This document shows positions 1 through 25,098 of a stretch of 34,581 nucleotides of DNA, piece after piece. Source of the DNA: Desulfobacteraceae bacterium (lineage in GTDB: Bacteria > Desulfobacterota > Desulfobacteria > Desulfobacterales > Desulfosalsimonadaceae); the NCBI GenBank assembly GCA_014237465.1, contig JABZFM010000039.1, forward strand, positions 1 through 34,581. Reading direction: 5' to 3'. The translations under genes were made by a program, and so were the position numbers. A model generated the notes under the pieces. That model saw only the letters and a program-made list of their open reading frames with translations. It was not told the origin of the DNA and made no database searches. Position 1 is the stretch's first letter, and each line of letters opens with the position of its first letter.

Positions 1-57
1 TCCCGCATCTTCGGGCCAATCCCACGGTGGCATGTCATAGAGTTTCTTTATCATCAT
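1..57 (-). CDS. Unidentified protein, N-terminal fragment cut by window edge
   Basis: The minus strand opens at ATG 57-55 (a second ATG follows at 54-52) and reads MMIKKLYDMPPWDWPEDAG before leaving the window. An AAGGA-type ribosome site lies just upstream. The acidic, tryptophan- and proline-rich start resembles N-termini of some HEAT-repeat proteins of sulfate reducers, but 19 residues are too few to assign a family. Only the start is supported. Confidence 0.45.
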   Translation of the reverse strand, partial: MMIKKLYDMPPWDWPEDAG

Positions 58-156
58 CCTGTCCTTTCATTCTTTTATCATCTCTTTTGATATCTAAAAT
101 CAGGGTGCCCCCCAAATTTCAAGTAACAGACTTTTTAACATTAACGAATTTAGTAG

Positions 157-210
157 AATTTAGTAGGGACGTCCTTAAATAATAATTTAGTAGGGACGTC
201 CTTAAATAAT
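157..210. repeat. Two adjacent perfect 27-bp direct repeats
   Basis: Positions 157-183 and 184-210 are identical. Each carries the core TAGGGACGTCCTTAAAT with a GGACGTCC palindrome. A partial third start (gaatttagtag) lies just to the left. The second copy runs into the stop codon of the transposase-like remnant at 210-212, so the repeats abut its 3' end, as terminal repeats of a REP-type element might. Confidence 0.8.
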
Positions 211-634
211 TAAATAACTTGACGCAAACAGTCATTCCTGATAAGAGACGGGGTCTGCCCATGACTCTTGATGATCTGGCCGGATATTTTTTCTACACGG
301 TTTTTAAGTTGTTTGTCAGTTTTCATGCGAGCTTTCATTCTTTCAATCACACTGCTGACTGAACTGTATTTTTCCATCCGGAAATATTCTCTAATCTCAT
401 TTAAACGATCACGTCTTAATCGCCGAAATAAGTAAATCGCTACATTTTTGGGCTCATTAAACTGCCCCCTTCTGGAAACAAACAGGGCATCTGTATCTAT
501 GCGATAATACCTGTTTACATACTTAATGATCTGTTCTTTTTCAGGTGCGAGTGTTTTTGCCTGTGGAATCTCATCATCTGTTTTCCGGGCATAATATTCT
601 CCTTTTACCCAGTCAATATCTCGGGGGTCGCGTC
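210..634 (-). pseudogene. REP-associated transposase remnant (DnaA-C-like helix-turn-helix end)
   Basis: On the minus strand an open frame without a usable start reads DWVKGEYYARKTDDEIPQAK and continues for about 130 residues to TAA at 212-210. Its centre (NVAIYLFRRLRRDRLNEIRE, then SSVSSVIERMKARM) resembles the DnaA C-terminal DNA-binding fold found at the end of a group of REP-associated/IS200-like transposases. The N-terminal catalytic half with the HUH motif and tyrosine is absent. The frame degrades into 16-bp tandem repeats at 619-666. I read it as the C-terminal stub of a dead mobile-element gene. A standalone DnaA-C-like regulator is less likely because no start codon is visible. Confidence 0.6.
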
Positions 635-9706: not shown

Positions 9707-10177
9707 TTGAAAATTACAGATCACCTGAAAAAGGAAAACATCTTTTTAGATGCTATGCTGGATAATAAGCCGGATGTATTGAAATACATTTCCGATGTCT
9801 GCGCGCACAACGGAATCATTAACGATCCGGAAATATTATATAACGGCCTTATCCAGCGGGAACAAACCATGAGCACCGGCGTGGGGAGCGGCATCGGATT
9901 TCCGCACACAACAAATTCGGAAACCCGCCATGCCAATGTGATTTTAATTCGCCTGGCAAAACCCATTGATTTTGAATCGCTTGACCATCAGCCGGTGGAC
10001 ATTATTTTAGGGCTGATCTTTCCGGATTCGGACCCGGGCATCCATGTCCGCATGCTGGCCAGGGTTTCCCGCCTGTGCCAAAACCCCGACTTTTTAAGTG
10101 CCATCAAACAGGCCGAAGATGCCGATCTCCTGATTGAACAGATTAAAATCATTGAAAACAGTACAATCTTTCATTAA
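9707..10177 (+). CDS. PTS EIIA-like protein (PtsN/fructose type)
   Basis: 156 residues of the mannitol/fructose EIIA fold. His67 in GSGIGFPHT is the expected phosphorylation site, and the sequence HANVILIRLAKPIDFESLDHQPVDIILGLIFP fits PtsN-like EIIA. The start is TTG 9707, 6 bases after a G-rich TAGGGGG ribosome site; no in-frame ATG occurs near it. No EIIB or EIIC transporter gene is in the window, so a regulatory role (nitrogen-PTS type) is more likely than sugar uptake. It is followed after 49 bases by a P-II-like gene and then by the acetate-activation genes. Confidence 0.85.
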   Translation: MKITDHLKKENIFLDAMLDNKPDVLKYISDVCAHNGIINDPEILYNGLIQREQTMSTGVGSGIGFPHTTNSETRHANVILIRLAKPIDFESLDHQPVDIILGLIFPDSDPGIHVRMLARVSRLCQNPDFLSAIKQAEDADLLIEQIKIIENSTIFH

Positions 10178-10226
10178 AACAGCATCTGCCAATCCATCAA
10201 CTCTTTTGCCATAAGGCTGAATAACC

Positions 10227-10571
10227 GTGTACCTTCTCTTTGCCGTTATTGAAAACGAAGACCTTTTAGACGACCTGATCACAGGCTGGATGGATCTGGG
10301 GATTGGCGGTGCAACGGTGATCGAAACCACTGGAGCCCTCCAGCTGATCACCCAGCATATCCCCATTTTTGCAGGATTACGAAGCCTTACCAGCGGTGGC
10401 GGACGTCATAATAAAACTATATTTACCGCCATTCAAACGGATGAACTCCTGGATTCAGCTGTTTCTTTTCTTGAAAACCTCTGCCAAAAATCGGAAAAAC
10501 CCCACCAGGGGGTATATTTTGTAACACCGCTTTCTCACTTCGGACGCCTTGGAATCAATCATACCCCCTGA
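10227..10571 (+). CDS. P-II-like signalling protein
   Basis: 114 residues starting with GTG 10227. The beginning (YLLFAVIENEDLLDDLITGW, then GIGGATVIETTG) and the strand near the end (QGVYFVTPLSHFGRLG) match the ferredoxin-like fold of P-II-family proteins, where a GxxFVxPxxxxxR strand closes the domain. The T-loop tyrosine of classical GlnB is not evident, so it is a divergent P-II-like protein with unknown effector. It probably forms a unit with the EIIA-like gene 49 bases upstream. The ribosome site is weak. Confidence 0.6.
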   Translation: MYLLFAVIENEDLLDDLITGWMDLGIGGATVIETTGALQLITQHIPIFAGLRSLTSGGGRHNKTIFTAIQTDELLDSAVSFLENLCQKSEKPHQGVYFVTPLSHFGRLGINHTP

Positions 10572-10615
10572 CCAGCCGGCGAGATATAAAAATTATAAAA
10601 CTCCCAAATTTATAA

Positions 10616-10652
10616 TTGACGTTCCCCGATCATGTGTTAAATTACTTATAAG
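10616..10652 (+). promoter_or_regulatory. Candidate sigma-70 promoter with palindrome upstream of the acetate module
   Basis: TTGACG at 10616-10621 and TAAATT at 10638-10643 are separated by 16 bases, a fair housekeeping-type promoter. The perfect 10-bp palindrome ACTTATAAGT at 10643-10652 lies where transcription would begin and could be a regulator site. The start codon of the fused CoA-transferase/GNAT gene is about 60 bases downstream. This is based on sequence match only. Confidence 0.4.
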
Positions 10653-10712
10653 TAAACATTGTTCCGGTTTCTAAACCAAATTTCGACCTGTCAAAATACG
10701 GAGATCGATCTC

Positions 10713-12590
10713 ATGACCACGAGTTACTGGCCGGACGAATATATCGACAAACGGCGCACCGCCGAAGAAGCCATGCAAATAATCCGTTCCGGTCAAAGGG
10801 TATTTTTCGGCTCTTCCTGCGCCGAACCCCAGCACCTTGCCAACACCCTCATTCAGATGGCGGATCATTTTTCCGACCTTGAAATCGTCAGGCTCATGAG
10901 CCTGACAGACTCCCCGATCACCAAACTGGCCAATGAAAACCCCCATGGCAATTTCAACATCCGGAATATCTATCACGGGTCCGCGTCAGCCACGCATCTT
11001 GCGCCCAGCAAACCTTACATCACACCGATTAACATTTCAGCGGTACCCGGGTTATTTTTAAAACGACAGTTACCGCTCAATGCCGCCTTTGTTCAGACTT
11101 CTCCGCCGGATGACTTCGGATGGATGAGCCTGGGTATTTCAGTAGATATCTGCCTGGCTGCCATCCAGTCGGCAGATCTGGTCATCGCTCAGGTAAACCC
11201 GAAAATGCCGAGGGTACTGGGCCAGAGCTTTATCCATGTGAATGATGTGGACGTAGTGGTTGAAAAAGAAGAAGAACTACTGACCATTGACACCCTCCCG
11301 GAATTTGAAACCGCCCATAAAATCGCCCAAATGATTGCCAACCTCGTCGAAGACGGCTCCACCTTTCAGCTGGGACTGGGGGCCACCCCCAAGGCAATCC
11401 TACTGGCCCTGGCAGACAAAAATGACCTGGGGGTCCATACCCAGTTTATCATCAACGGTATCATGGACCTGGTCTCGGTCGGCGTTATCACCAACAAATA
11501 CAAAGGAATCCATAACGGCAAGCTGGTGGCCAGCAATGCGGTGGGCTCAAAGAACCTGTATGAGTTTATTCATGATAACCCGTCCATTGAATTCTATCCA
11601 TCGGATTATGTCAATAACCCCGGTATTATTGCCCAGCACAATAAAATGGTGGCCGTCAACATGGTCATGGAAATGGACCTCACCGGTCAGGCCGCAGTGG
11701 ATGCCCTGCCCAACAATTATTTTGCAGGCGTTTCGAGCATGATCGATTTTGTCAGGGGATCGGCCCTGTCTAACGATGGAAAATCGATCCTGCTGATTCC
11801 TTCGACATCTATTGACGGCGAAGAAAGCAGAATCGTCAGCGCTATTGACAGCGGCGGCGTGGTCATTCCTAGAGGAGACGTCTCCTATGTGGTCAGTGAA
11901 TTCGGCGCGGTTAACCTTTTTGGGAAAAATCTGCAGGAACGGGCAACCGCTATGATCAGCCTGGCACATCCGAAATTCCGGGACGAGCTCTTCGCAAAAG
12001 CTAAGGAACTCGGACTGATGAGCCATGGCCGGCAGCTCAGCGAATCCCTGACAAGCGTTTATCCCGCCGGTCTTGAGGAAATAAGGAAATACGGTGACCA
12101 GGACGTTCAATTAAGACCCGCCAAACCGGTGGATGAACGGCGGATCCAGGAACATTTCTATAACCTGGATAAAAAAGATGTGGTTGCACGATTTTTTCAT
12201 GAAAAAACATGTTTTATCCGAGATGATGTCGAATGCATGTTTGAAACCGATTATATTAAAAATCTGACCATTCTCGCAGTCACCGGGGAGTTTGGTTTCG
12301 GTGAAGTTGTGGGAATCGGTGCCTACATGATTGAACCGAAGAAAAATATTGCGGAAGTCGCCTTTTCTGTTACCAAAAAATGGCAGGGCAAGGGGATTGC
12401 GTCCGCGCTTCTTTTTAAACTTGCCCAGGCGGCAAAGGACAATGGAATTTCAGGGCTGGTGGCATACACCTCTCCGGAGAACTCGAACATGATCAAATTA
12501 TTTAAAAAGCTGCCGTACCCTGTGAAATCCTCACTGAATGACGGGATGATGATATTAACCTGCAGTTTTACAAACCTGAATGAGCAGTAA
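10713..12590 (+). CDS. Acetyl-CoA hydrolase/transferase-like domain fused to GNAT acetyltransferase
   Basis: 625 residues from ATG 10713, which has a GGAG site 8 bases upstream; the frame is open to TTG 10659. Residues 1 to about 440 match class I CoA-transferases of the acetyl-CoA hydrolase/4-hydroxybutyrate CoA-transferase type (FQLGLGATPKAILLAL; GVHTQFIINGIMDLVSVGVI; a C-terminal domain with IPRGDVSYVVSEFGAVNLFG). The usual catalytic Glu of the HTE motif is Gln244. Residues about 455-625 form a GNAT domain with an acetyl-CoA-binding loop, WQGKGIASALLF. The gene lies 12 bases before acs, with the ribosome site of acs at its stop codon. A protein lysine acetyltransferase acting on Acs is the inferred role; acting as a CoA-transferase remains possible if another residue substitutes. 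Confidence 0.88.
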   Translation: MTTSYWPDEYIDKRRTAEEAMQIIRSGQRVFFGSSCAEPQHLANTLIQMADHFSDLEIVRLMSLTDSPITKLANENPHGNFNIRNIYHGSASATHLAPSKPYITPINISAVPGLFLKRQLPLNAAFVQTSPPDDFGWMSLGISVDICLAAIQSADLVIAQVNPKMPRVLGQSFIHVNDVDVVVEKEEELLTIDTLPEFETAHKIAQMIANLVEDGSTFQLGLGATPKAILLALADKNDLGVHTQFIINGIMDLVSVGVITNKYKGIHNGKLVASNAVGSKNLYEFIHDNPSIEFYPSDYVNNPGIIAQHNKMVAVNMVMEMDLTGQAAVDALPNNYFAGVSSMIDFVRGSALSNDGKSILLIPSTSIDGEESRIVSAIDSGGVVIPRGDVSYVVSEFGAVNLFGKNLQERATAMISLAHPKFRDELFAKAKELGLMSHGRQLSESLTSVYPAGLEEIRKYGDQDVQLRPAKPVDERRIQEHFYNLDKKDVVARFFHEKTCFIRDDVECMFETDYIKNLTILAVTGEFGFGEVVGIGAYMIEPKKNIAEVAFSVTKKWQGKGIASALLFKLAQAAKDNGISGLVAYTSPENSNMIKLFKKLPYPVKSSLNDGMMILTCSFTNLNEQ

Positions 12591-12602
12591 GGAGTAAAAT
12601 AA

Positions 12603-14567
12603 ATGACTGAACATCCGAAATTTTATGACGCACATCTGGCGGAATACCAGAAAATTGCCTATATCAACAGCAAGGAACAATACCAGGAAATCTACCAGCG
12701 CTCTATTGACAACCCGGAAGATTTCTGGGCGGAACAGGCCAGAAAATACCTTTCATGGGATAAAGAATGGGATTTTGTATTAAATTATGATTTTAACGAG
12801 GCAAAAATCGAATGGTTCGGCAACGGCAAGCTCAATGCATCTTATAACTGTCTTGACCGGCACCTGGACACGATCAGAGATAAAATCGCGTATTACTGGG
12901 AAGGGGACCGGCCGGAAGACGCAGAAACCTACACCTACGGAGACATCTACGAAAAAGTCAACCGGTTTGCCGCAGTTTTAAAATCCAGAGGCATCAAAAA
13001 AGGTGACCGGATCATTATTTATCTTCCCATGATCATCGAGTTGCCGGTTTCCCTGCTGGCCTGCGCCAGAATCGGCGCGGTTCACAGTGTGGTATTCGGC
13101 GGATTCAGTGCTGAAGCCATCGCCAACCGGATTACCGACTGTGATGCCAAACTGGTGATTACGGCGGACGGCGGTTACCGCGGCGGCAAACCTGTTTCAT
13201 TAAAAAACAATGTGGACGCGGCGCTAAAAAACTGCCCGAACGTGCAAACCGTGGTTGTTGTCAATCGTACCGGCGCGGACATACAGTTGGACGCATCCAA
13301 AGAGATCTGGTGGCATGAGACGGTGGCCGACCCCGGCCTGCCGTCCTATGTGGCGCCCGAGTCAATGGATGCCGAAGACCCGTTGTTTATTCTTTACACC
13401 AGTGGGAGTACGGGAAAACCCAAAGGGGTTGTTCATACCCACGGCGGATATCTCCTGTATGCGGCCATAACCACGCAGCTGGTTTTTGATTTAAAAGATA
13501 ATGAAGTGTTCTGGTGTACCGCGGACATCGGCTGGATCACCGGTCACAACTACATTGTTTACGGCCCGCTGATCAACGGACTGACCAGCGTCATGTTTGA
13601 AGGCGTGCCGAGCTACCCGGATTTTGACCGGTTCTGGGCCATTGTCAGCAAATACAAGGTCAATAAATTCTATACCGCCCCCACCGCGATCCGAGCCCTG
13701 GCCAAGGAAGGCGAAGCCCATGTTCAAAAGCACGATATCTCCTCCCTTAAACTCCTGGGCACGGTGGGCGAACCAATCAACCCGGAAGCCTGGCGATGGT
13801 ATTATCATCACGTGGGCAGGGACTGGTGCCCGATTATCGACACCTGGTGGCAGACCGAAACCGGCGGCCACATGCTCACCCCCATGCCGGGTGTGGCCCC
13901 CATTAAAGCCGGCTCCTGCTCCACGCCGTTCTTCGGGGTGGACCCGGTCATCTTAGATGATGCGGGTGATGAAGTCAAATTCCCCAACGAAGAAGGGCTT
14001 CTATGCATCCGCAAACCATGGCCAGGCATTGCAAGGACTGTATACGGCGACCATGAACGGTTCCGGGACACCTATTTCAGCCAGGTGCCGGGAATGTATT
14101 TTACCGGTGACGGGGCCAAGAAAGATGAGGACGGGTATTTCTGGATTATCGGCCGTATTGATGATGTTATCAATGTATCCGGGCACCGCATGGGCACCGC
14201 TGAGGTCGAATCCGCTTTGGTATTGCATAAAAATGTCGCAGAAGCTGCTGTGGTGGGTGTTCCCCATTCCATCAAAGGCCAGGGAATCTATGCCTTTATT
14301 ATCCTGAAAAGCGGTGCAACGCCTTCTGATGATTTGAAAAAAGAACTGGTAATGCAGGTCCGAAAGGAAATCGGGCCCATTGCCACCATTGATGTGATCC
14401 AGTTTACCGAAGGACTGCCCAAAACCCGGAGCGGTAAAATCATGCGGCGGATCCTGAAAAAAATCGCGGCCGGCAAGCTGGATGAACTGGGCGACACCTC
14501 CACCATTGCCGATGAGTCGGTTATTGATCTGCTGATTGATGATCGGGTGGATGTTTCTGCGTTGTAA
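12603..14567 (+). CDS. acs: Acetyl-CoA synthetase, AMP-forming
   Basis: 654 residues, the normal length for Acs. An N-terminal cap (about 1-110) is followed by the adenylation core with the P-loop TSGSTGKPKG, the acetate/CoA region DIGWITGHNYIVYGPL, and the A5 motif DTWWQTETGG. The hinge and C-terminal domain carry YFTGDGAKKDEDGYFWIIGR and PKTRSGKIMRRILKK. Lys612 is the catalytic lysine, known in Acs to be switched off by Pat/AcuA-type acetylation and reactivated by deacetylases. It converts acetate, ATP and CoA to acetyl-CoA, AMP and pyrophosphate in the cytoplasm. An acetyltransferase fusion lies directly upstream and a deacetylase-family gene downstream. Confidence 0.97.
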   Translation: MTEHPKFYDAHLAEYQKIAYINSKEQYQEIYQRSIDNPEDFWAEQARKYLSWDKEWDFVLNYDFNEAKIEWFGNGKLNASYNCLDRHLDTIRDKIAYYWEGDRPEDAETYTYGDIYEKVNRFAAVLKSRGIKKGDRIIIYLPMIIELPVSLLACARIGAVHSVVFGGFSAEAIANRITDCDAKLVITADGGYRGGKPVSLKNNVDAALKNCPNVQTVVVVNRTGADIQLDASKEIWWHETVADPGLPSYVAPESMDAEDPLFILYTSGSTGKPKGVVHTHGGYLLYAAITTQLVFDLKDNEVFWCTADIGWITGHNYIVYGPLINGLTSVMFEGVPSYPDFDRFWAIVSKYKVNKFYTAPTAIRALAKEGEAHVQKHDISSLKLLGTVGEPINPEAWRWYYHHVGRDWCPIIDTWWQTETGGHMLTPMPGVAPIKAGSCSTPFFGVDPVILDDAGDEVKFPNEEGLLCIRKPWPGIARTVYGDHERFRDTYFSQVPGMYFTGDGAKKDEDGYFWIIGRIDDVINVSGHRMGTAEVESALVLHKNVAEAAVVGVPHSIKGQGIYAFIILKSGATPSDDLKKELVMQVRKEIGPIATIDVIQFTEGLPKTRSGKIMRRILKKIAAGKLDELGDTSTIADESVIDLLIDDRVDVSAL

Positions 14568-14606
14568 TTTTGATGGCGACAAAATCTTTGCGGCTTCGAA
14601 AAAATT

Positions 14607-14643
14607 GGTGTCAGGTTTCAGGTGTCAGGTTTCAGGTTTCAGG
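14607..14643. repeat. Tandem GTGTCAGG/TTTCAGG short repeats
   Basis: Five consecutive 7-base-type units of the form (G)TGTCAGG or TTTCAGG occupy this stretch between acs and the deacetylase gene. Related TCAGGTTTC strings recur near 17790-17815 and 22560-22575. A CTCTGTG-type repeat follows at about 14678-14695. These look like dispersed intergenic repeats rather than regulatory sites. Confidence 0.6.
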
Positions 14644-14731
14644 AAAGAGTCATGTAACCGAAACCTGGCACCTCTTTTCTCTGTGCTCTCTGTGGTAAAA
14701 AAAAACTTTCACGGAAAGGAAAATTTACGGA

Positions 14732-15763
14732 GTGAAAGTCGGCATTGCCCGTGACAACAGGTTCCTGGAACACAAAACCGGTCATTTTCACCCGGAACAC
14801 CCCAAACGACTGGATGCGATCTATCGAATGGTCGACCAGCATTTTGACGGCCGGCTGATCCATATCCCTTCGTCACCGGCAACCCTTGAACAGATTGAGC
14901 GGATCCATTCCCCGTCTTACGTTAAACGAATTTTAAAAACTGCTGAACAACGGATCACCAGCCTTGCGCCGGACACCCCCATCAGTGCGGACAGCTATTT
15001 TGCTGCCTGGCTTGCCGCAGGCGCCTGCGTTAAAGGCATTGACAGCCTGATGGAAGAAACGTGCGATGCCTTTTTCGCGTTTGTCCGTCCCCCGGGACAC
15101 CATGCCCTCCCGGATAAGGCGTCCGGGTTCTGCATCTTTAACAATATCGCCATTGCGGCACAGTATGCCATTGACCGGTACGCGCTGGAACGGATTATAG
15201 TCATTGACTGGGACATCCATCACGGTAACGGTATCCATGACATCTTCTATGACAACCAAAAAGTGCTGTACGTGTCTACCCACGATTTGATGCTGTATCC
15301 ATATACCGGCGAGATTGATCAAAAAGGCAGCGGAAAAGGCGAAGGGTACACCGTCAATATCCCCATTTTACGCGAGTTTACAGATGACGACATGATCTAT
15401 CTTTACCAGGAAATACTGCGGCCCCTCATAAACGGATACCAGCCCCAGCTGATCATGGTGGCGGCTGGTTTTGACGCCCACATCAGTGACCCCATCGGCC
15501 GGTCCCGCTTAACGGAGGCGACTTACAGCGGGGTTACCCGCCTGCTGAAACATTTCAGATCTTCGGTGGAAAACCCGCCCCTGTTCTATTCGCTGGAAGG
15601 CGGTTATCACCAGCGCGCACTGGCCGAATCCATCAAAACTGTTTTAATGGAACTGACCGGCAGCCTGTCCCCCATGCCGCCGCTGTCACCGGGCCAGGCA
15701 GTAACTGATCTCGTCGCGCAGTTAAAAAAAATTCATTTACCAGACGGAGTATTCAATGATTAA
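14732..15763 (+). CDS. Histone-deacetylase-family protein (AcuC/acetylpolyamine amidohydrolase-like)
   Basis: 343 residues from GTG 14732 (AAAGGA 11 bases upstream). All active-site elements are visible: His123-His124 in RPPGHHA, the zinc ligands Asp161 and His163 in DWDIHHGNG, Asp248 in AAGFDAH, and the closing LEGGY tyrosine. The family is zinc-dependent and removes acetyl groups from lysines or polyamines. In Bacillus, AcuC of this family deacetylates AcsA. Here it lies between acs and an AcsA-type gene that overlaps its last 8 bases, which strongly suggests deacetylation of these synthetases. Acetylpolyamine hydrolysis is the main alternative. Confidence 0.93.
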   Translation: MKVGIARDNRFLEHKTGHFHPEHPKRLDAIYRMVDQHFDGRLIHIPSSPATLEQIERIHSPSYVKRILKTAEQRITSLAPDTPISADSYFAAWLAAGACVKGIDSLMEETCDAFFAFVRPPGHHALPDKASGFCIFNNIAIAAQYAIDRYALERIIVIDWDIHHGNGIHDIFYDNQKVLYVSTHDLMLYPYTGEIDQKGSGKGEGYTVNIPILREFTDDDMIYLYQEILRPLINGYQPQLIMVAAGFDAHISDPIGRSRLTEATYSGVTRLLKHFRSSVENPPLFYSLEGGYHQRALAESIKTVLMELTGSLSPMPPLSPGQAVTDLVAQLKKIHLPDGVFND

Positions 15764-17486
15764 AGCAAGAATACCGGCCCAGAACAAATTCGCCAACCTG
15801 AAATCCTATGAAAACTTTTTGCCTGATTTTCATTGGGCGGATATAGAAAAAGAATTTTCATGGGCTGGCACGGACCGGATGAATATTATCGCCGAGTCCA
15901 TCGACCGGTGGGCCGAGGACCAGCAACGATGCGCCCATGACGCCCTGATCTTTTCAAAAGGCGGTCAGGTGCAGACCTATTCCTATCAACAGCTAAAGAT
16001 CAAGTCCTGCCAATGGGCCGGTTTGCTTACAAAATACGGGTTTAAAGCCGGTGATCGGCTAATCATCCTTCTGCCGCCCTGCCCGGAAATATTTTTTGCC
16101 ATGTCTGCCTGCGCCCGGATGGGTGTTATCTTCTGCCCGGTATTTTCCAGCTCCGGCTTTTATGAGCTGGAAATCCGACTGGAAAGCACCACGCCAAGGG
16201 GAATTCTCACCCTGCCGGACCTTGTGGAAAAAATATCCTATGAATTTGCCGGACAGATCCAGCATATTTTCCTGACCCAGGGACCGGCCCCGGGATTATT
16301 TTCAAATGAGGTCATGATCACCGGCCTGCCCGAACAGATGCCGTCTGAATTCGAACCGGAAATACTCTCCGGAGACACCCCGCTTTACCTGATTTACACA
16401 TCCGGTTCCACCCGGCCACCCAAGGGCGTCATTCACACCCACCGGGAGATGACCGGCATGCTCGCATCCGCCAGGTGGGTGCTTGACGTCAAGCCCAACT
16501 CAGTTCTTTGGACAGACGCGGATCCGGCATGGGTGACCGGAACCGTTTACGGCGCGTTTGCACCCTGGCTGTGCGGGGTCACCTCTTTTGTCCAGGGAGA
16601 TCCGTTTACGGCCGCCAACTGGTACTGGACCCTTGAGAAATTCAAGGTGTCGGTCTGGTATACCACACCAAAAATTATCCGCGATCTGATGGATGCCGGC
16701 GACGACCTGCCGTCACGGTATGACTTAAACGCCTTAAGACATATCACATGTGTCGGCGCCCCCCTGATCCCGGAACTGTTGTACTGGGTCGGGGAACACC
16801 TGAAATGTTACCCGCATGACACCTGGTGGATGACCGAAACCGGCATTATCTGTATTGCCAACCTTCCCTGCAATGACATCAAACCCGGCTCCATCGGCAA
16901 ACCACTGCCCGGCATCGAAGCCGCCATTTTAGATGAAAACGGGGAACCTCTTCCGGCCCTGTCCCTTGGAGAGCTGGCGTTAAAATGCCCCTGGCCCGGC
17001 CTGACCATCGGCTTGTGGCAGGACAATGACCGGTTTCAGCGATATTTTATAGACGACAAATGGTTTCTCACCGGTGATATTGCCTTAGAGGATGAAGAGG
17101 GATATTTTTACCACCAGGGAAGAAATGATGATCTGTTAAAAGCCGGCGGCGACAAGGTCATCGGTCCGTTTGAAATCGAACAGATATTGTGCGTCCACCC
17201 GGCAGTGGCTGAAGCGGCCGTTATTTCAAAAGGCAGCGAGCCCGGCAAAGGCATATCCTATTTAAAGGCATTTATCACCCTGAAAAAAGGATATATCCAG
17301 TCCACGCGTCTAAATTATGAAATCAAGGCGTTTTTAAAGGGCAACCTGGCGCCGGATATTGTCATCCAGGATATCATCTTTTTAGACAAACTCCCCAAAA
17401 CCCGAAGCGGCAAGCTTCTCCGCCGGGTTCTGCGGGCCCGGGAGCTGGGAATTCCGGGGGGGGAATCATTAAATATGCAGGATTAA
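15756..17486 (+). CDS. AcsA-type AMP-forming acyl-CoA synthetase
   Basis: 576 residues, the length of Bacillus AcsA/medium-chain acyl-CoA synthetases rather than classical Acs. The ATG overlaps the deacetylase gene by 8 bases and has a CGGAG site. Motifs are the P-loop TSGSTRPPKG (Arg replaces the usual Gly), DPAWVTGTVYG, DTWWMTETG, WFLTGDIALEDEEGYFYHQGR, and PKTRSGKLLRRVLRA with catalytic Lys553. It should activate a short- or medium-chain carboxylate as an acyl-adenylate and then a thioester. Translational coupling to the deacetylase implies shared regulation by lysine acetylation. Substrate identity cannot be read from the sequence. Confidence 0.92.
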   Translation: MIKARIPAQNKFANLKSYENFLPDFHWADIEKEFSWAGTDRMNIIAESIDRWAEDQQRCAHDALIFSKGGQVQTYSYQQLKIKSCQWAGLLTKYGFKAGDRLIILLPPCPEIFFAMSACARMGVIFCPVFSSSGFYELEIRLESTTPRGILTLPDLVEKISYEFAGQIQHIFLTQGPAPGLFSNEVMITGLPEQMPSEFEPEILSGDTPLYLIYTSGSTRPPKGVIHTHREMTGMLASARWVLDVKPNSVLWTDADPAWVTGTVYGAFAPWLCGVTSFVQGDPFTAANWYWTLEKFKVSVWYTTPKIIRDLMDAGDDLPSRYDLNALRHITCVGAPLIPELLYWVGEHLKCYPHDTWWMTETGIICIANLPCNDIKPGSIGKPLPGIEAAILDENGEPLPALSLGELALKCPWPGLTIGLWQDNDRFQRYFIDDKWFLTGDIALEDEEGYFYHQGRNDDLLKAGGDKVIGPFEIEQILCVHPAVAEAAVISKGSEPGKGISYLKAFITLKKGYIQSTRLNYEIKAFLKGNLAPDIVIQDIIFLDKLPKTRSGKLLRRVLRARELGIPGGESLNMQD

Positions 17487-17738
17487 CGATGCCTGCGTAA
17501 AAAATTCAATTTCTGCGTTGCGCTGCATCCTTCATCACTCAACGTAGCAAGCTACGCCTCGCTCTTCAGGATTTGCGCGCCTTGAACTTGAAACTTTTTT
17601 CTTTGCCATCGGGTATTTTATAAAAATTTCGGTAGGCGAGCTACAGCTTCATCCTTTATGCCTTGAAAATGAACGAATCAAAACGTTGAGAAAACCGGGT
17701 GCAGATTCTCTTTTGCTTTTTCTAAGTAAGGTACCCGA

Positions 17739-17775
17739 TTGTAGGCCGGATTAGCGCGTGAGCGCGTAATCCGGC
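17739..17775. repeat. 37-bp REP-like hairpin, left copy
   Basis: Begins TTGTAGGCCGGATTAG and ends GTAATCCGGC. The inner arms GCCGGATTA and TAATCCGGC pair around a GCGCGTGAGCGC centre. A copy with one mismatch lies at 22514-22550 in the same orientation, on the other side of the tetR and glycyl-radical-enzyme genes. Confidence 0.85.
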
Positions 17776-17953
17776 GATTCAAGGTATCAGAAGTCAGGTT
17801 TCTGTTGTCAGGTTTCAGTCTTTTAGGGTGCATTTTATAAAAAAATGAACATCGAATAATGATGTCGCTCCGCTCCGCAAATTATTTTAGAAGCGAATAA
17901 AAAAAAACAATGCCGATTCTTTAATAACTATTTCGTTTACCTGCTTATCTGCT

Positions 17954-18088
17954 TTAGTTAAGTTGAGCTTAATGTCCCAAAATTCAGAAAATTATCGGCA
18001 GGCACGGTGGCCTGCCCTACGGGGTTTTGCAATAATCTTCGTAGAGTCGGCCACCGTGCCGACCGATCAAACTTGACTTAACTTAATC
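17954..18088. repeat. Nested inverted repeat, MITE-like
   Basis: Outer arms TTAGTTAAGTTGAG and CTTGACTTAACTTAA pair imperfectly. Inner arms GGCACGGTGGCC (18001-18012) and GGCCACCGTGCC (18049-18060) pair perfectly and extend on both sides with few mismatches. The size of about 135 bp, nested arms and lack of coding suggest a non-autonomous mobile repeat. Confidence 0.6.
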
Positions 18089-18172
18089 GAAGTAGATAAC
18101 CATATTCGTTTATTTTCAGCGTTTTGATTCTCGCAAAAAAAATTAATTAATTCTTCTCCGCTAAAATATCAT

Positions 18173-18264
18173 GTAGGGCGGATTAGCAAAGCGTAATCCG
18201 CCATATGTCTCAACCCGGCTCACCGACCACATGCGGTGGATTACGCTTCGCTAATCCACCCTAC
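18173..18264. repeat. Paired REP-like palindrome
   Basis: The left arm 18173-18202 (starting GTAGGGCGGATTAGC) and right arm 18235-18264 (ending GCTAATCCACCCTAC) are inverted copies matching at 27 of 30 bases. Each arm is itself palindromic around GGATTAGC...GCGTAATCC. The arrangement resembles bacterial interspersed mosaic elements made of two opposed REPs. Confidence 0.75.
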
Positions 18265-18341
18265 GCAGCTGTAAACTTATTCATTACCAATGATGTAATG
18301 AACAGTTATTTATTTTGATTTTCCGAAGCTGATTTTTATAT

Positions 18342-18382
18342 TTGACTTTTCTCCTGAACAACGTTAATTTAACACTGTTAAA
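18342..18382 (+). promoter_or_regulatory. tetR promoter with 15-bp palindromic operator
   Basis: TTGACT (18342-18347) and TAATTT (18365-18370) are spaced by 17 bases. The sequence TTTAACACTGTTAAA at 18368-18382 is a perfect 7-bp inverted repeat around one base. It overlaps the -10 element and the expected transcription start. Autoregulation by the TetR protein encoded 30 bases downstream is the natural reading, and the glycyl radical enzyme gene would be controlled with it. Confidence 0.65.
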
Positions 18383-18412
18383 CTATAAAATTTAATGCCA
18401 TCAGGAGCACCT

Positions 18413-19063
18413 ATGCCCAAAGCCATTCGAAGTCCGGAAGAAATTGAAACCGTTAAAAACGACATCCTCACGACGGCCCTGAAACTGATGTGCGATGACG
18501 GATTTGACGCCCTGTCCATGAGAAAACTGGCCACGCGACTGAAAATGACCGCCGCCAACATTTACAATTATTATAAGAACAAGGATGACCTGTATCTTGC
18601 TATACAGACCCGGGGATTTCAGATGATCGTGGACCGGTTTCAGGAAATTTATGCGTCAGATCAACCGACCCGGGAGAAACTCCATGACATGATGCACGCA
18701 TATCTCAAATTCGGTGTCGGGTACCCGGATTATTATGAAATCATGTTCAGCCGGAACACGCCCAAATATGCGGACTACAAAGGGACCCCCATGGAACCCA
18801 CCGCATACGTCGAAAAACAAACCGCTCTCAAAGTCTCCGAAATCACGACCCGGACGATCATGGAACTCTATGACGGGAGTGATGCGATTGACGAGAATGA
18901 AGCCTTGTACCGGACGATTATCGTCTGGAGCACGCTTCACGGCGTGGTCAACCTGTTTAACAGCCGCGTTCTGCAGGAGGTTGAAGAAGCCTCCGAAGAA
19001 CTGATTTACAGATTAATCAATGACTTGATGAAGATTGCAATCAAACCGAAAAACGAAGCGTAA
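18413..19063 (+). CDS. TetR/AcrR-family transcriptional regulator
   Basis: 216 residues from ATG 18413, which has AGGAG 5 bases upstream; an ATG at 18395 is in frame but lacks a ribosome site. The N-terminal helix-turn-helix (about 34-55) reads LSMRKLATRLKMTAANIYNYY followed by KNKDDLYLAI, typical of TetR. The C-terminal ligand domain contains WSTLHGVVNL, the Trp-His-Gly signature of the WHG-type TetR C-terminal domain. It is 33 bases upstream of the glycyl radical enzyme on the same strand, so it probably senses that enzyme's substrate or product and represses both genes. Confidence 0.92.
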   Translation: MPKAIRSPEEIETVKNDILTTALKLMCDDGFDALSMRKLATRLKMTAANIYNYYKNKDDLYLAIQTRGFQMIVDRFQEIYASDQPTREKLHDMMHAYLKFGVGYPDYYEIMFSRNTPKYADYKGTPMEPTAYVEKQTALKVSEITTRTIMELYDGSDAIDENEALYRTIIVWSTLHGVVNLFNSRVLQEVEEASEELIYRLINDLMKIAIKPKNEA

Positions 19064-19096
19064 ACGTCACTTTAATCGCTCAACAGGAGGAAACCG

Positions 19097-22000
19097 ATGA
19101 ACACCCGAGATATACAGCAACTTTTGTCCGCTCTTCTGGTCACCCCCGAAAGAAGCCTTACCGGACAAAGCTTTAAAAACATAGGGAAAAGCCTGGTATT
19201 TAATTCCTTATCCCACATTCTCCTGCAACTGATGGCGGTTCTTTTCAACCGGCGGGCAAAATTCAATCAATATCTCAAAGGATCTGACGGATGGATTAAT
19301 TTTAAAATCGGGTTTCAAACCGATACCGAAAGTATCCGGCAGACAGCGGTATTTTTTAATGGTAAAATATCCGTGATTCGTAAAATCGCCGAAGACGCGG
19401 ATGTGATTTTACGATTTTCAGATGAAAAAGCGCTCCTCGAAATGCTCCAGGTCACTCCGAATGAGGTGCTTGGCCTGATTTTAAAAAACCGGATGATCCT
19501 TGACGGCAACCTGGCCTACCTCCAGCTCTTTAATTATTATGTCTCTCTGCTGATGGGGAACAAGCACCAGAAAATGCTTGAAAAAGCGCATCAATCAGAC
19601 ATATCTGAAAGAAAGAAACGCTATGATCAATTCAAACCGCAACTTTCACAAGAGCTTATCACCAGACATCTTTACCGGATGGAAGCCCCAAACTCAGATC
19701 CGGCAAAAGACCCCGGCGTTATCTGCCTGAAAGATCCCTTTCTGGCGGAATTTGGTCTAAATGATTTCCCGCGGCTGGAAGAATTTCGTGATGACTATTT
19801 TAATATTAAACCGGAAATTTGCGCAGAACGGGCTGAACTTTTGACCCAATGGTTCAGAAAAAACGGGTTTGAAAAAGACAGCACCGGAAAAAAATGGGTG
19901 CCCGAACTCCGCCAGGCCATGGCATTTAAATTTCTGATGGAAAATAAGAAACCCATTATCCGAAAAAATGACCTGATCGCCGGAACCACGACGACCAATG
20001 ACACCATCGGCGTCATTGTCTATCCGGATGCCCAGGGTGTCATGGTTTGGGGTGAACTGGGATCCATTGATAAACGGGTGTTGAACCCGTATGCCATTTC
20101 AGACAAAACCGCAAAAAAACTGCACTACGACATTTTCCCTTTCTGGGCCAAACGAAATTTCCGTGAATTCGTCAGAACCAACTTTGATTACCCTCATTGC
20201 CAGCGAATTGAAGAGCGGTGGGTGGCCTATTTTGTGTGGAAATCCGTGGGCATTTCCCATACCATCCCGGATTTCAAATCCCTGCTGGAAAAAGGAGCAT
20301 CCGGCATCATTGAGGACATCACCCGCCAACTGAATATAGAGGACTTAAGCAAAGAACAGGTCATCGCCCTTCAATCCATGAGAATCACCCTTGAAGGGCT
20401 TTATGCGTATGCGCACAACCTGTCAAAAACCGCTACCCATCAGGCCAGGTCAGAAACCAGCCTGAAACGGCAACAAGAACTCATCCGCCTGGCAAACATC
20501 TGCTCCAAAGTCCCTATGCAGCCTGCCGCCACCCTGGACGAAGCCGTGAACCTTCTCAATATCGCATGGGTGGCATTAAACCTTGAAAATGCCAATACCG
20601 GATTTTCCTTCGGACGTCTGGATCAGCTGCTGCAGCCGTTTTTTATCATGGATATGGAAAAACTGGAAACAGATAAGGAGAAGGCCGCATATATCAAAAC
20701 CGCCATTGAACTGATCGGTTCACTGTTTCTTCGTTTTTCAGATCACCTGCCCCTGTCACCGGATATCGGTAACTACCTGTTCGGGGGGGCGTCTTCCACC
20801 CAGGCGCTCACCATCGGGGGCATGACACCGGACGGTAAAGACGCGGTCAATGACATGACCTATATCATGTTAAAAGCCGCCGAGATGCTCGGTCTGCGTG
20901 ACGTGAACGTCAACGCCCGCTTTCACCCGGATGTCAACAGCAGCACCTATCTGAAACGGCTGTGCGAGGTAAATATCATCACCGCCGGCACCCCGTCCAT
21001 GCATAACGACAAGGCGGTGTTTGAGGCACTCAAACAGCATGATTATCCGGTTGAAGATATGCGCGACTGGTCCGCCACCGGGTGCGTGGAGCCGACCATC
21101 TCCGGAAAGCATATGGGCCATACCGGTTCTATTTTATTTAATATGGTAGCGCCTCTTGAGATGGCGTTAAACAATGGGTCCCACCCGCTGATGAACTGGG
21201 ACCCGGGCCCGAAAACAGGCAGCATTGAAAATAATAATTTTAAATCCTTTGATGACTTTTTTAATGCCTATGCCGCGCAAACAAAATATTTAATCCGCCA
21301 GGCGGTGGAATTTAACAATATGCTGGCCGAAGCCCATGTGGCCTACCGCCCCACACCGCTACTGTCGGCCATGATGGCCGGGTCCATTGAGAAGGCGGCA
21401 GATGTCACCAAAGGCGGGGCCAAATACAACACTTCCGGCACATCCAATATCGGTCTGGCCGATGTGACAGATTCCATGATGGTGATCAAACAGCTGGTGT
21501 TTGAGGAAAAATCAGTCTTGTTTACAAAACTTAAATCAGCCCTTGACACCAATTTTGAAAACGACCCGGCCCTGCATGCCATGATCATGAGCAAGGTCCC
21601 CAAATTCGGGTCCGGCAGTCCGGAAACCATTGACATGGCCAACCGGATTGCCCGCATGGTGCATGCGATTCACCACAGTCAGAGCAATTATCGGGGCGGG
21701 AAATACACCACCGGGTTCTGGTCCATGTCCCAGCATGTGGCCTATGGGTCGCTGTCCGGGGCCTTGCCCTCCGGACGTCTTTACGGCAAGGCCTTCACGC
21801 CGGGACTCACCCCGCACCCGTCAGCATCCAAAAGCTTTTTGGACAATATCCGGGACGTGGCTCAGCTGGATCCTGAAACCATGGACAATAATATCGCGTT
21901 TAATGTAAAACTGAATTTAAGCCCGGAAGACACCCGGGAAAAAAGCGTGGATATCATGGCGTCCTATGTTCAAACCTACTTTGACATGGGCGGCATGCAG

Positions 22001-22165
22001 CTCCAGTTTAACGTGGTGACATCGGAAACCTTAAAAGACGCCATGGCCAACCCGGAAAACTACAAACACCTCATGGTTCGGATCTCCGGGTATAACGCCT
22101 ATTTTACCATGCTTAATAAGGAAATTCAGCTGGAGCTCATTGAGCGGGCAGAATACGCAACATGA
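19097..22165 (+). CDS. Glycyl radical enzyme with N-terminal SCP2-like domain
   Basis: 1022 residues after a strong AGGAGG site. Residues about 190-1022 are a pyruvate-formate-lyase-family barrel. The thiyl-radical Cys663 lies in ATGCVEP with Glu665, as in the dehydratase/lyase branch (glycerol dehydratase, choline trimethylamine-lyase type). The C-terminal radical Gly998 lies in RISGYNAYF. The first 190 residues are extra for the family. Residues about 55-155 (ADVILRFSDEKALLEML, MILDGNLAYLQLF) resemble an SCP2 lipid-carrier domain. Cys-x-Glu points to elimination chemistry; the substrate is unknown, and a hydrophobic or CoA/lipid-like one is my inference from SCP2. No radical-SAM activating enzyme lies in the window. 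Confidence 0.93.
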   Translation: MNTRDIQQLLSALLVTPERSLTGQSFKNIGKSLVFNSLSHILLQLMAVLFNRRAKFNQYLKGSDGWINFKIGFQTDTESIRQTAVFFNGKISVIRKIAEDADVILRFSDEKALLEMLQVTPNEVLGLILKNRMILDGNLAYLQLFNYYVSLLMGNKHQKMLEKAHQSDISERKKRYDQFKPQLSQELITRHLYRMEAPNSDPAKDPGVICLKDPFLAEFGLNDFPRLEEFRDDYFNIKPEICAERAELLTQWFRKNGFEKDSTGKKWVPELRQAMAFKFLMENKKPIIRKNDLIAGTTTTNDTIGVIVYPDAQGVMVWGELGSIDKRVLNPYAISDKTAKKLHYDIFPFWAKRNFREFVRTNFDYPHCQRIEERWVAYFVWKSVGISHTIPDFKSLLEKGASGIIEDITRQLNIEDLSKEQVIALQSMRITLEGLYAYAHNLSKTATHQARSETSLKRQQELIRLANICSKVPMQPAATLDEAVNLLNIAWVALNLENANTGFSFGRLDQLLQPFFIMDMEKLETDKEKAAYIKTAIELIGSLFLRFSDHLPLSPDIGNYLFGGASSTQALTIGGMTPDGKDAVNDMTYIMLKAAEMLGLRDVNVNARFHPDVNSSTYLKRLCEVNIITAGTPSMHNDKAVFEALKQHDYPVEDMRDWSATGCVEPTISGKHMGHTGSILFNMVAPLEMALNNGSHPLMNWDPGPKTGSIENNNFKSFDDFFNAYAAQTKYLIRQAVEFNNMLAEAHVAYRPTPLLSAMMAGSIEKAADVTKGGAKYNTSGTSNIGLADVTDSMMVIKQLVFEEKSVLFTKLKSALDTNFENDPALHAMIMSKVPKFGSGSPETIDMANRIARMVHAIHHSQSNYRGGKYTTGFWSMSQHVAYGSLSGALPSGRLYGKAFTPGLTPHPSASKSFLDNIRDVAQLDPETMDNNIAFNVKLNLSPEDTREKSVDIMASYVQTYFDMGGMQLQFNVVTSETLKDAMANPENYKHLMVRISGYNAYFTMLNKEIQLELIERAEYAT

Positions 22166-22727
22166 TGAATAAAGCAGGGGTCGGGGGTCGGGTCAGCGGA
22201 GATCTGGTTTTCTACTAAAAAACTTAATATCCAACCCGGAAAAGCTATCAAAAATTAATTAAAAGCTAAACTTTGAACATTCAACATCGAAGACGGATAT
22301 CGCTTCGCTCTATGATTCATAATAAAGGGAACTTAAGAAATAATCAGGCTTCAATAAACTAGATATGGATGGTAAAAAATAAAACAAAAAAAATCGACAG
22401 AATACCTTTCTGGAAGTTGAACGTTGGATGTTCGATGTTGATTTTCTCAGGTAGTGCCTCATTCTTCGAGACTCAAGCGCCTTGAACTTGGAACGTTTTA
22501 CACAGCCATAAGTTTGTAGGCTGGATTAGCGCGTGAGCGCGTAATCCGGCAGAACATGGTGTTAAGTGTCAGGTGCCGGAATAATTTGGTTACCACTCTG
22601 TTCCGGCAAATTTAATGCAGCCTTTTTTTTCAAATCCTGTTTAATTCAAGTTGCTCCAAACAATTTGTTATGCTAACAAATCAATTGTTTCAGGAAATAC
22701 AAAAAAACTTACAGTTTGAAGAATTCC
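22166..22727. other. Repeat-rich intergenic region after the glycyl radical enzyme
   Basis: No gene is seen in about 560 bases. It contains inverted relatives of a TTGAACATTCAACATCGAA string near 22272-22290 and GTTGGATGTTCGATGTTGA near 22422-22440. Then come GCGCCTTGAACTTGGAAC near 22478-22495, the REP-like hairpin 22514-22550, and a GTGTCAGGTGCCGG string. These mirror the cluster left of tetR. No clear terminator follows the enzyme gene. Confidence 0.6.
22514..22550. repeat. 37-bp REP-like hairpin, right copy
   Basis: Same orientation and one mismatch (CTGG for CCGG) relative to 17739-17775. Together the two copies bracket the TetR and glycyl-radical-enzyme genes. Confidence 0.85.
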
Positions 22728-23393
22728 ATGCACCTTGAAATCACTTCAGAGATTTTTCAGGTCGGCGGGTCAGGATATACCGCCCCCGAGGACGCGGCCA
22801 TCTATTTAATCTGCTTTAACGAAAAATCCGCCTTAGTTGACGCGGGTTGCGGAAACCGCCTGGACCGGCTGTACGGCAATATCTCCGAATGCAATATCAA
22901 CCCCGAAACCATTGAATACCTGCTGATCACCCACTGCCACTATGATCATACCGGAGGCGCGGCAAATGTCTGCAAGGATCTTTCCTGCAAAACAGTGGCC
23001 CATAAGCTGGACGCCCAATACCTGGAAAAAGGCAACAACACAGTGACCGCAGCCGACTGGTACGGCTCAAGCATCAAACCCTTTACAGTGGATCAGAAAA
23101 TTTCCAACAAACAAACCGACATCCTGCTGGGAGATAGAAAAATTACCGCCATCCACACTCCCGGTCATTCCCCCGGTTCCCTGGTGTTTCTAACCGAATC
23201 CGACGGCAAAAAGGTGTTGTTCGGCCAGGATGTTCACGGACCGCTGGCACCGGGTTTAAAATCCAACCGCAAGGATTACATCGCCTCTCTGGAAAAAATG
23301 ATCTCCCTGGATGCGGATATTCTGTGCGAAGGACATTTCGGGATTTACACGGGAAAAAATAAGATCCGGAAATTCATCAAATCCTTCTTATAA
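22728..23393 (+). CDS. MBL-fold metallo-hydrolase (glyoxalase II-like)
   Basis: 221 residues from ATG 22728; TTG 22716 is an alternative start four codons upstream, and neither has a strong ribosome site. The metal-binding motif HCHYDH (HxHxDH) is intact. It is followed by the later ligands His in HTPGHSPGSLVF, Asp in FGQDVHGPL, and His in CEGHFGIY. This set binds two metal ions in thioesterase- and lactonase-type MBL hydrolases. It lies 560 bases after the glycyl radical enzyme across a repeat cluster, so linkage is possible but weak. The substrate cannot be assigned; thioester or lactone hydrolysis is the common family activity. Confidence 0.88.
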   Translation: MHLEITSEIFQVGGSGYTAPEDAAIYLICFNEKSALVDAGCGNRLDRLYGNISECNINPETIEYLLITHCHYDHTGGAANVCKDLSCKTVAHKLDAQYLEKGNNTVTAADWYGSSIKPFTVDQKISNKQTDILLGDRKITAIHTPGHSPGSLVFLTESDGKKVLFGQDVHGPLAPGLKSNRKDYIASLEKMISLDADILCEGHFGIYTGKNKIRKFIKSFL

Positions 23394-23685
23394 AGCTGCA
23401 TAAACTTTTCAAGGTTTAAAGAGGCATTATGAATATTCCAATACCAAACAAAAAAGATTGCATACCCGCTTTGTAATTGATAATCTTTTATAAAAGTTAC
23501 ATTCAACTTCCATTTCACCTGACCGACATCTCTACAGCCTTCATCTCCATTGTTTACCAATATCAATTTCAGATGTGCCTGACAGTGAGATCCTTTCCAT
23601 GAAATTCTATTGGGGAACCGGAAGTCGTTGATCAAGCATCAAGTAACGAATATCCATGATTTGAAAATTTAAAAGGATTCCCAAA

Positions 23686-25098
23686 ATGAGAATCAAAGAA
23701 ATTGTATTTTCAAAATTAAAACGATTGTATTTGGTGGATTCAAAAAATGACATTGCCGAAATCGGAGAAATGCTGAAAGATCAGCTCCATGACATCGCCG
23801 ATGTTTTTTTTAATGAGCTTCTTAAGATCCCGGAAACATCTATTATTCTGAAAAATACGAAAATTGACATAAACCTTCACAACACCATAGCCGACTGGAT
23901 AGGATCTATTTTTACAAATTATTCAGAAGCAGAACTCGAATCGCTGATTGAGCGTCAAAAAAGGATTGGAATAGTCCATGCCACCATCAATGTCAACCTG
24001 AATTACTTTAATCACGGCATCGGCATTTTAAAGGATGAAATTTATCGACGCATGCGAAAAAAGATATCGGATGTTCACCGTTTCAGTGAAGCCGTTCTTA
24101 TTGTCGGCGAATTGTTTGATATATATATTTCCATTATTTCAGAAAGTTATTTTTTCAATGAACTGCTTCATGAGAGCAATCAGCTTTCGCTGAAAGTAAA
24201 GGGATTGACACAAAATACAGCCATCGAATGTGAACGTCTCCGCTCCATGCTCATGGAATGGTCACGAAACGCACTGATGTTCCTGTATCAGTCTCCTGAA
24301 ATCAACGTTAAAAACATTCCTCATCTTCAATATTCTAATTTTGGACTATGGGTGATTTATAAGTCGGATTTTCTTTCACACCCGTTAAATGTTTCCAGTG
24401 AGCTGAAACAACACATCTCTGAAATTGATAGTGCCCTGTTTCAGGCCGTCAGATTCCGAATGAAAAATAAAAAAGATAAATTTGCCAATGCGGTGACGAT
24501 CTTTAATGACGCGGTGACAAAATCTTCATGGTTCATATCTACCATTGTCGACCAGGCAATTGAAATTGACACCGGCATGGATCCGCTGACCCGGCTCTTT
24601 AACAGGCGCTATTTAAGCACCATATTACGACGGCAGACGGAAATCTGCAATAAACAGGGTTTGCCGTATTCAATTTTACTGATTGATCTGGACCATTTTA
24701 AAAAGATTAACGATGAATTCGGACATGACGGCGGAGACAGGATTTTAGAACAATTTTCAAAACTGTTACTGGAATCCGTCAGAGCCAGTGATTTTATATT
24801 CCGTTACGGGGGAGAAGAATTTCTGATTGTCATGGGGAATGTGAACCAAAACGAAGCCATCATAGCTTCGGAAAAAATAAGAAAAAAATGCGATAAACAC
24901 ATCTTTAAACTTACCAACAATAAAAACATCCATTTAACCTGCAGTATCGGGATTGCAGTACACGATGGCCATCCGGATTACAATCGAATGGTGAAAAAGG
25001 CCGATCTTGCTTTATATGATGCCAAAAATCAAGGGAGAAACAGGGCCATCTTCATTGTTGAGAATAATGAGGCCGAACAATTCCGAACACTCCATTAA
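23686..25098 (+). CDS. Globin-coupled diguanylate cyclase (DosC-like)
   Basis: 470 residues. The N-terminal globin domain (about 1-155) has the proximal heme ligand His98 in IGIVHATINV. A helical middle domain (about 160-290) contains SNFGLWVIYKSDF, matching the corresponding FGLWF segment I recall in Escherichia coli DosC. The C-terminal GGDEF domain (about 297-465) has the catalytic GGEEF at 375-379 and an inhibitory RxxD site, Arg366-Ala-Ser-Asp369, five residues before it. It should make cyclic di-GMP under control of heme-bound oxygen or another gas. By my alignment the DosC distal Tyr43 position is Asn43 here. AAGGA precedes the ATG. Confidence 0.92.
   Translation: MRIKEIVFSKLKRLYLVDSKNDIAEIGEMLKDQLHDIADVFFNELLKIPETSIILKNTKIDINLHNTIADWIGSIFTNYSEAELESLIERQKRIGIVHATINVNLNYFNHGIGILKDEIYRRMRKKISDVHRFSEAVLIVGELFDIYISIISESYFFNELLHESNQLSLKVKGLTQNTAIECERLRSMLMEWSRNALMFLYQSPEINVKNIPHLQYSNFGLWVIYKSDFLSHPLNVSSELKQHISEIDSALFQAVRFRMKNKKDKFANAVTIFNDAVTKSSWFISTIVDQAIEIDTGMDPLTRLFNRRYLSTILRRQTEICNKQGLPYSILLIDLDHFKKINDEFGHDGGDRILEQFSKLLLESVRASDFIFRYGGEEFLIVMGNVNQNEAIIASEKIRKKCDKHIFKLTNNKNIHLTCSIGIAVHDGHPDYNRMVKKADLALYDAKNQGRNRAIFIVENNEAEQFRTLH

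Follow-up and report, generated by a model that had tools for sequence, protein, structure and literature searches.

A putative acetyl-CoA feedback switch in Desulfobacterota with a pseudo-CoA-transferase fused to a Pat-like acetyltransferase

Four consecutive plus-strand genes of a Desulfobacteraceae bacterium appear to form an acetyl-CoA feedback switch, a reading from sequence and genomic context to which we give a probability of roughly 70%. The genes lie at positions 10713-17486 of the window, that is, the whole stretch of 34,581 nucleotides analysed here, which is contig C61 in a genome assembly of 5.09 Mb (70 contigs, 99.96% complete). They encode a CoA-transferase-GNAT fusion, an acetyl-CoA synthetase (Acs), an HDAC-type deacetylase and an AcsA-type ligase (AcsA2). 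It is well established that Acs can be acetylated reversibly. That such a switch would act here on two synthetases is well supported by recurrent clusters, a Pat-like GNAT, the presence of deacetylase motifs, conserved target lysines, and the small GNAT that other families carry in their version of the cluster.

In the proposed mechanism, plentiful acetyl-CoA would lead the pseudo-CoA-transferase domain to bind acyl-CoA, and the domain thus occupied would license, or scaffold, the GNAT. The GNAT would then acetylate Acs at Lys612 and the second ligase at Lys553, which would stop acetate adenylation until the HDAC strips off the acetyl group and both ligases become active again.

Table 1. Genes and protein regions of the putative switch, in window coordinates.
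Feature	Position	Strand	Remarks
Pseudo-CoA-transferase-GNAT fusion (putative)	10713..12590	+	625 aa from ATG; ORF and Pfam
Fusion, CoA-transferase-like region	residues ~8-436		Gln244 at nucleophile position
Fusion, Pat-like GNAT region	residues ~462-618		Glu548; Q558-x-x-G561-x-A563
Acs	12603..14567	+	654 aa; candidate target Lys612 in PKTRSGK
Zn-dependent HDAC-family deacetylase	14732..15763	+	343 aa; GTG start
AcsA-type AMP-forming acyl-CoA synthetase (second ligase, AcsA2)	15756..17486	+	576 aa; candidate target Lys553 in PKTRSGK

Twelve bases separate the fusion from acs and 164 separate acs from the HDAC gene, and the ORFs of the HDAC and the second ligase overlap by 8 bases. ORFs and Pfam domains agree with an earlier note on this DNA in the number, strand, identity and final overlap of the four genes: the fusion combines AcetylCoA_hydro, AcetylCoA_hyd_C and Acetyltransf_1, Acs combines ACAS_N and AMP-binding, and the second ligase has AMP-binding. 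An alternative start of the fusion at a TTG (10659) is possible. In a promoter and terminator scan, promoter-like sites numbered 21, compared with 12.4 (sd 3.8) in shuffled sequence, and terminator-like sites 11, compared with 11.8. The gap between acs and the HDAC gene contains a heptamer repeat, GGTTTCA (14607-14643).

The surroundings hold further genes. Upstream of the fusion are an EIIA-like protein (9707-10177) and a weakly P-II-like one (10227-10571; E 0.031, below the cut-off); the same pair is found at L134 and L136, and L146 has the EIIA-like protein alone. Downstream of the cluster lie glycyl radical enzymes (19097-22165) and a protoglobin-GGDEF protein, likely a gas-sensing diguanylate cyclase (23686-25098). 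A Pfam scan of the 10 proteins at 9707-25095 revealed no AcuB-like (CBS/ACT) gene.

Is the CoA-transferase half of the fusion still an enzyme? The alignment of residues 8-436 to 4-hydroxybutyrate CoA-transferases runs from end to end (best PDB match 9vag, E 9.3e-107), and a structure model of the fusion (mean pLDDT 80.3) has CoA-transferases as its top Foldseek matches. In an ungapped match, Gln244 stands opposite E238 of 3gk7, which we take to be the catalytic nucleophile. All five solved CoA-transferases that were aligned carry Glu at this position and GGQ in a later glycine loop, where the fusion has Gln and SSM. The earlier note had missed this absence of the catalytic residue.

The replacement extends through the fusion family. 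A survey of 121 fusion ORFs left 115 distinct sequences, whose nucleophile column reads Gln in 104, Glu in 5, Leu in 2, and Arg, His, Met and Ala in one each, so that 110 of 115 lack Glu. In a FastTree tree, from which one short fusion was omitted, the five Glu-bearing fusions sit among Gln rows in three separate places, and their Glu therefore looks secondary. As a control, 29 genomes from the family to which the window belongs were searched for PF13336 domains; 30 loci given by the search, 20 more picked from among those it listed and 4 found before gave 52 distinct proteins. Among the GNAT-fused copies we read Gln in 25, Pro in 7, Asp in 4 and Glu in none of the 36 readable ones, with one unreadable. 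The unfused copies have Glu in 6 and Gln in 2, with 7 unreadable; one of the two Gln copies is a fusion truncated by its contig, and the other, of a 730-aa type, scores low and is misaligned. Fused and unfused copies thus contrast: losing the nucleophile accompanies GNAT fusion.

Taken by its residues, the CoA-transferase half looks like a pseudoenzyme. A role as an active CoA-transferase was rejected on the replaced nucleophile and the lost GGQ loop, with the qualification that Gln at the nucleophile position need not be strictly dead, as such a mutant can deamidate. The corresponding rival explanation makes the fusion a working CoA-transferase or hydrolase of acetate metabolism, with an accessory GNAT and an incidental linkage to the HDAC. 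The good conservation and end-to-end alignment of the domain would fit it, as would the few Glu copies and the Asp in 4 of 36 readable family copies; we regard it as highly unlikely, given that the replacements include Leu, Arg, His, Met and Ala, and Pro in 7 of the 36, and that the GNAT glutamate is kept throughout. Mean pairwise identity is higher in the CoA-transferase domain (62.6%) than in the GNAT (57.2%), and a dead domain that is better conserved than its partner argues for a retained job, for example ligand sensing. The inactive domain is a probable sensor of acyl-CoA, which may respond to acetyl-CoA in particular.

The GNAT half matches nine PDB sequences at E<=0.001, seven of them named as protein or lysine acetyltransferase or Pat and two as acyl-CoA synthetase. 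These nine comprise Pat chains of 886 and 877 aa, one other protein acetyltransferase, four entries named Pat or lysine acetyltransferase that are presumably mycobacterial, and the two named acyl-CoA synthetase, which we take to be S. lividans PatA. In the alignments, E548 stands opposite residue 809 in the 886-aa Pat chain and residue 123 in 4u5y, presumably the catalytic positions. This glutamate is present in 115 of 115 distinct fusions, and both it and the P-loop are found in the GNAT domain of the window's fusion. By its sequence, the GNAT half is Pat-like.

On the target side, PKTRSGK ends at K612 in Acs and at K553 in the second ligase, just as the earlier note had it. With 1024 bits against 657 and 1003 against 725, Acs scores above the NCBIfam cut-offs for acetate--CoA ligases; the nearest NCBIfam model of the second ligase is the PRK04319 acetate--CoA ligase, below its cut-off (574.5 vs 729). 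Across the clusters, the lysine motif is found in 31 of 31 AcsA2 and in 26 of 27 Acs; the remaining Acs is truncated by its contig.

The deacetylase belongs to Pfam Hist_deacetyl (E 7.9e-91), and no NCBIfam model matched it at E<=0.001. It contains H123-H124, D161, H163, D248 and Y292, which we take to be the catalytic motif residues of HDACs. Instead of a protein deacetylase it could be an amidohydrolase with small-molecule substrates, such as acetylated polyamines: its PDB matches include HDAC10 polyamine deacetylase, HDAH and acetylpolyamine aminohydrolase. The best of these matches are to HDAC6, though, and every one of the 32 class genomes that code for this HDAC type (at least 389 bits, with the next match at 304) has acs, acsA2 and/or the fusion next to it, which leaves the small-molecule alternative unlikely.

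The earlier note had asked for conservation of the neighbourhood beyond one strain, and the cluster does recur, in 34 distinct versions with the same HDAC type. Twenty of these have the fusion only, seven a small GNAT of 158-165 aa only, two both (L081, L083) and five neither; in these last five the contig ends on the acs side. Recurrence in other genomes argues that the gene set is not a product of chance. A small-GNAT profile run over the 34 clusters and L054 returned exactly the same nine small GNATs and no more. Six of the nine were scanned with Pfam and all match PF00583 (E 5.2e-15 to 4.3e-18); the remaining three are homologues at 47-63%.

The small-GNAT-only clusters, all in other families, run acs, small GNAT, HDAC, with acsA2 next in five of the seven, and the small GNAT lies between acs and the HDAC in 8 of 9 cases. 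In the clade of the window, the fusion precedes acs and a small GNAT is missing, so the fusion takes the place of the small GNAT in the cluster, not in its slot. In the AcsA2 tree, the fusion-only clusters form one side of a branch with support 100*, which fits a single displacement; the corresponding branch of the HDAC tree has a support of 53. Three of the small-GNAT-only clusters (L261 12450-12878, L264 3469-3897, L265 10916-11359) are followed by a cyclic-nucleotide-binding protein of ~145 aa (PF00027), perhaps a sensor in trans.

Other arrangements also occur. A sub-clade (L147, L150-L152) keeps fusion, HDAC and acsA2 together, with acs elsewhere or not found. L054 has the fusion and acsA2 without HDAC or acs, and L082 has the fusion and Acs on 21.9 kb without HDAC. 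The cluster genes are absent at L059, L060 and L156, three of the 26 rows in the window's clade, and at L158 just outside it.

The fusion family reaches far beyond this cluster, a point that the earlier note had also missed, with many copies beside genes of the CODH/ACS complex. The source genome alone has four fusions, the window's and three more (C3a, C3b, C66). Two of these paralogues adjoin AMP-ligases, and the ligase beside C3a is without the target lysine. The column of E548 reads Glu in C3a and C66 and Asp in C3b. A glycyl radical enzyme lies near the C66 paralogue (L008 72-2885). The genome further codes for two sirtuins and other HDAC-family genes. With these enzymes and the three additional fusions in the same genome, the earlier description of the acetylation switch as self-contained was too strong, while its core, a switch on two synthetases, gains support from the genomic context.

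In the class, the fusion query matches 256 of 291 genomes at E<=1e-60, paralogues included, and Acs matches 105 of 291 at E<=1e-180. By hand count over the 291, 89 genomes have both, 167 the fusion only, 16 Acs only and 19 neither. Strict class-wide coupling of the fusion to Acs was rejected on this lack of co-occurrence, and the family therefore cannot exist for Acs alone. Coupling to the presence of CdhC was discarded as well, as 15 of 20 fusion-less genomes among those listed (35 in all) have CdhC. In the phylum, the fusion is found in 103 of 247 genomes at E<=1e-100, with nearly all matches listed spanning both domains.

What do these fusions stand next to? Among the 115, 27 have acs-cluster genes as neighbours, 21 have CODH/ACS genes (counted as RACo, CdhC, CdhD, CdhE or CooS), none has both and 67 have neither, many of them on short contigs; four loci (L072, L075, L114, L130) were omitted from the neighbour clustering. 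At least 24 genomes, by hand count of the matches listed, have the fusion and CdhC less than 9 kb apart on one contig. When only the acs-cluster and CODH contexts are placed on the fusion tree, one change is needed; with the other rows counted too, the ACS label needs 6 changes and the CODH label 7. At L121, L122, L125 and L132, the fusion has Acs-like genes of 40-44% identity on the opposite strand on both sides.

These distributions bear on another explanation, compatible with the switch, in which the fusions are general or CODH/ACS-directed protein acetyltransferases and Acs control in the window's family is one derived use. The wide spread in the phylum, the neighbours from CODH/ACS and the missing co-occurrence with Acs all point its way. 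Against it, the fusion of the window's clade belongs to an acs-HDAC-acsA2 cluster whose counterparts in other families hold a small GNAT, and the presence of the fusion does not track CdhC either; we hold this explanation as a tentative possibility, with the odds somewhat against it. The occurrence in both acs and CODH/ACS contexts, following neither Acs nor CdhC, indicates a family broader than Acs, which most likely serves acetyl-CoA metabolism at large, with the window as its Acs version.

Beyond the four-gene switch, we lean towards the view that the fusion adds a sixth type, defined by its architecture, to the bacterial protein acetyltransferases. It would join a pseudo-CoA-transferase sensor to a Pat-like GNAT, would have spread through Desulfobacterota, and would be stationed with the producers of acetyl-CoA: in one clade these are AMP-forming synthetases, in others the enzymes of the CODH/acetyl-CoA-synthase cluster. 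It could also take over from a small dedicated GNAT in an operon for Acs acetylation. If this is true, two unrelated CoA enzymes have each given rise to an inactivated, GNAT-fused domain that senses acyl-CoA. Sulfate reducers and related anaerobes would then have reversible lysine acetylation at their acetyl-CoA node, perhaps also at CODH/ACS. The fusions are frequent, and their longest domain makes them read as CoA-transferases, so a non-enzyme may be counted as an enzyme in models of acetate metabolism.

How does this compare with known systems? In Bacillus subtilis, AcuA acetylates AcsA at K549 and AcuC reverses this (PMC11255334, PMC8556138, both as excerpted), and AcuB senses energy charge (excerpts of PMC11255334 and PMC13121692). 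As in the acuABC/acsA arrangement, a GNAT and a Zn deacetylase adjoin an AMP-forming acetyl-CoA synthetase in the window, so that a linked acetyltransferase-type gene, deacetylase motifs and a synthetase target lysine are all found. Unlike there, a fusion of 625 aa that includes a Pat-like GNAT is the candidate acetyltransferase, and the cluster has two synthetases and no CBS/ACT (AcuB-like) gene. The window's deacetylase is nearest to HDAC6 in the PDB, whereas AcuC is called class I-like in the excerpted text of PMC8556138.

The same excerpts of this review distinguish five types of bacterial acetyltransferases, of which types I and II have an inactive NDP-forming acyl-CoA synthetase domain; a CoA-transferase domain is not among the types they describe (PMC8556138). 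A narrow literature search by title and abstract opening, with most subscription journals outside its coverage, found no CoA-transferase-GNAT protein acetyltransferase. Like the Pat proteins of types I and II (S. enterica and E. coli Pat, S. lividans PatA), the fusion joins a Pat-like GNAT to an inactive CoA-handling domain. Here this domain (AcetylCoA_hydro) is a 4HB-type CoA-transferase instead of an NDP-forming acyl-CoA synthetase, with putative acyl-CoA binding. It shares sequence and predicted fold over residues 8-436 with the 4-hydroxybutyrate CoA-transferases (3gk7, 2oas, 3eh7, 3d3u, 9vag), and differs from them in lacking the nucleophilic Glu and the GGQ loop and in the attached GNAT. 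On this comparison, the system of the window probably works like the Acs-acetylation systems, with a different sensor domain.
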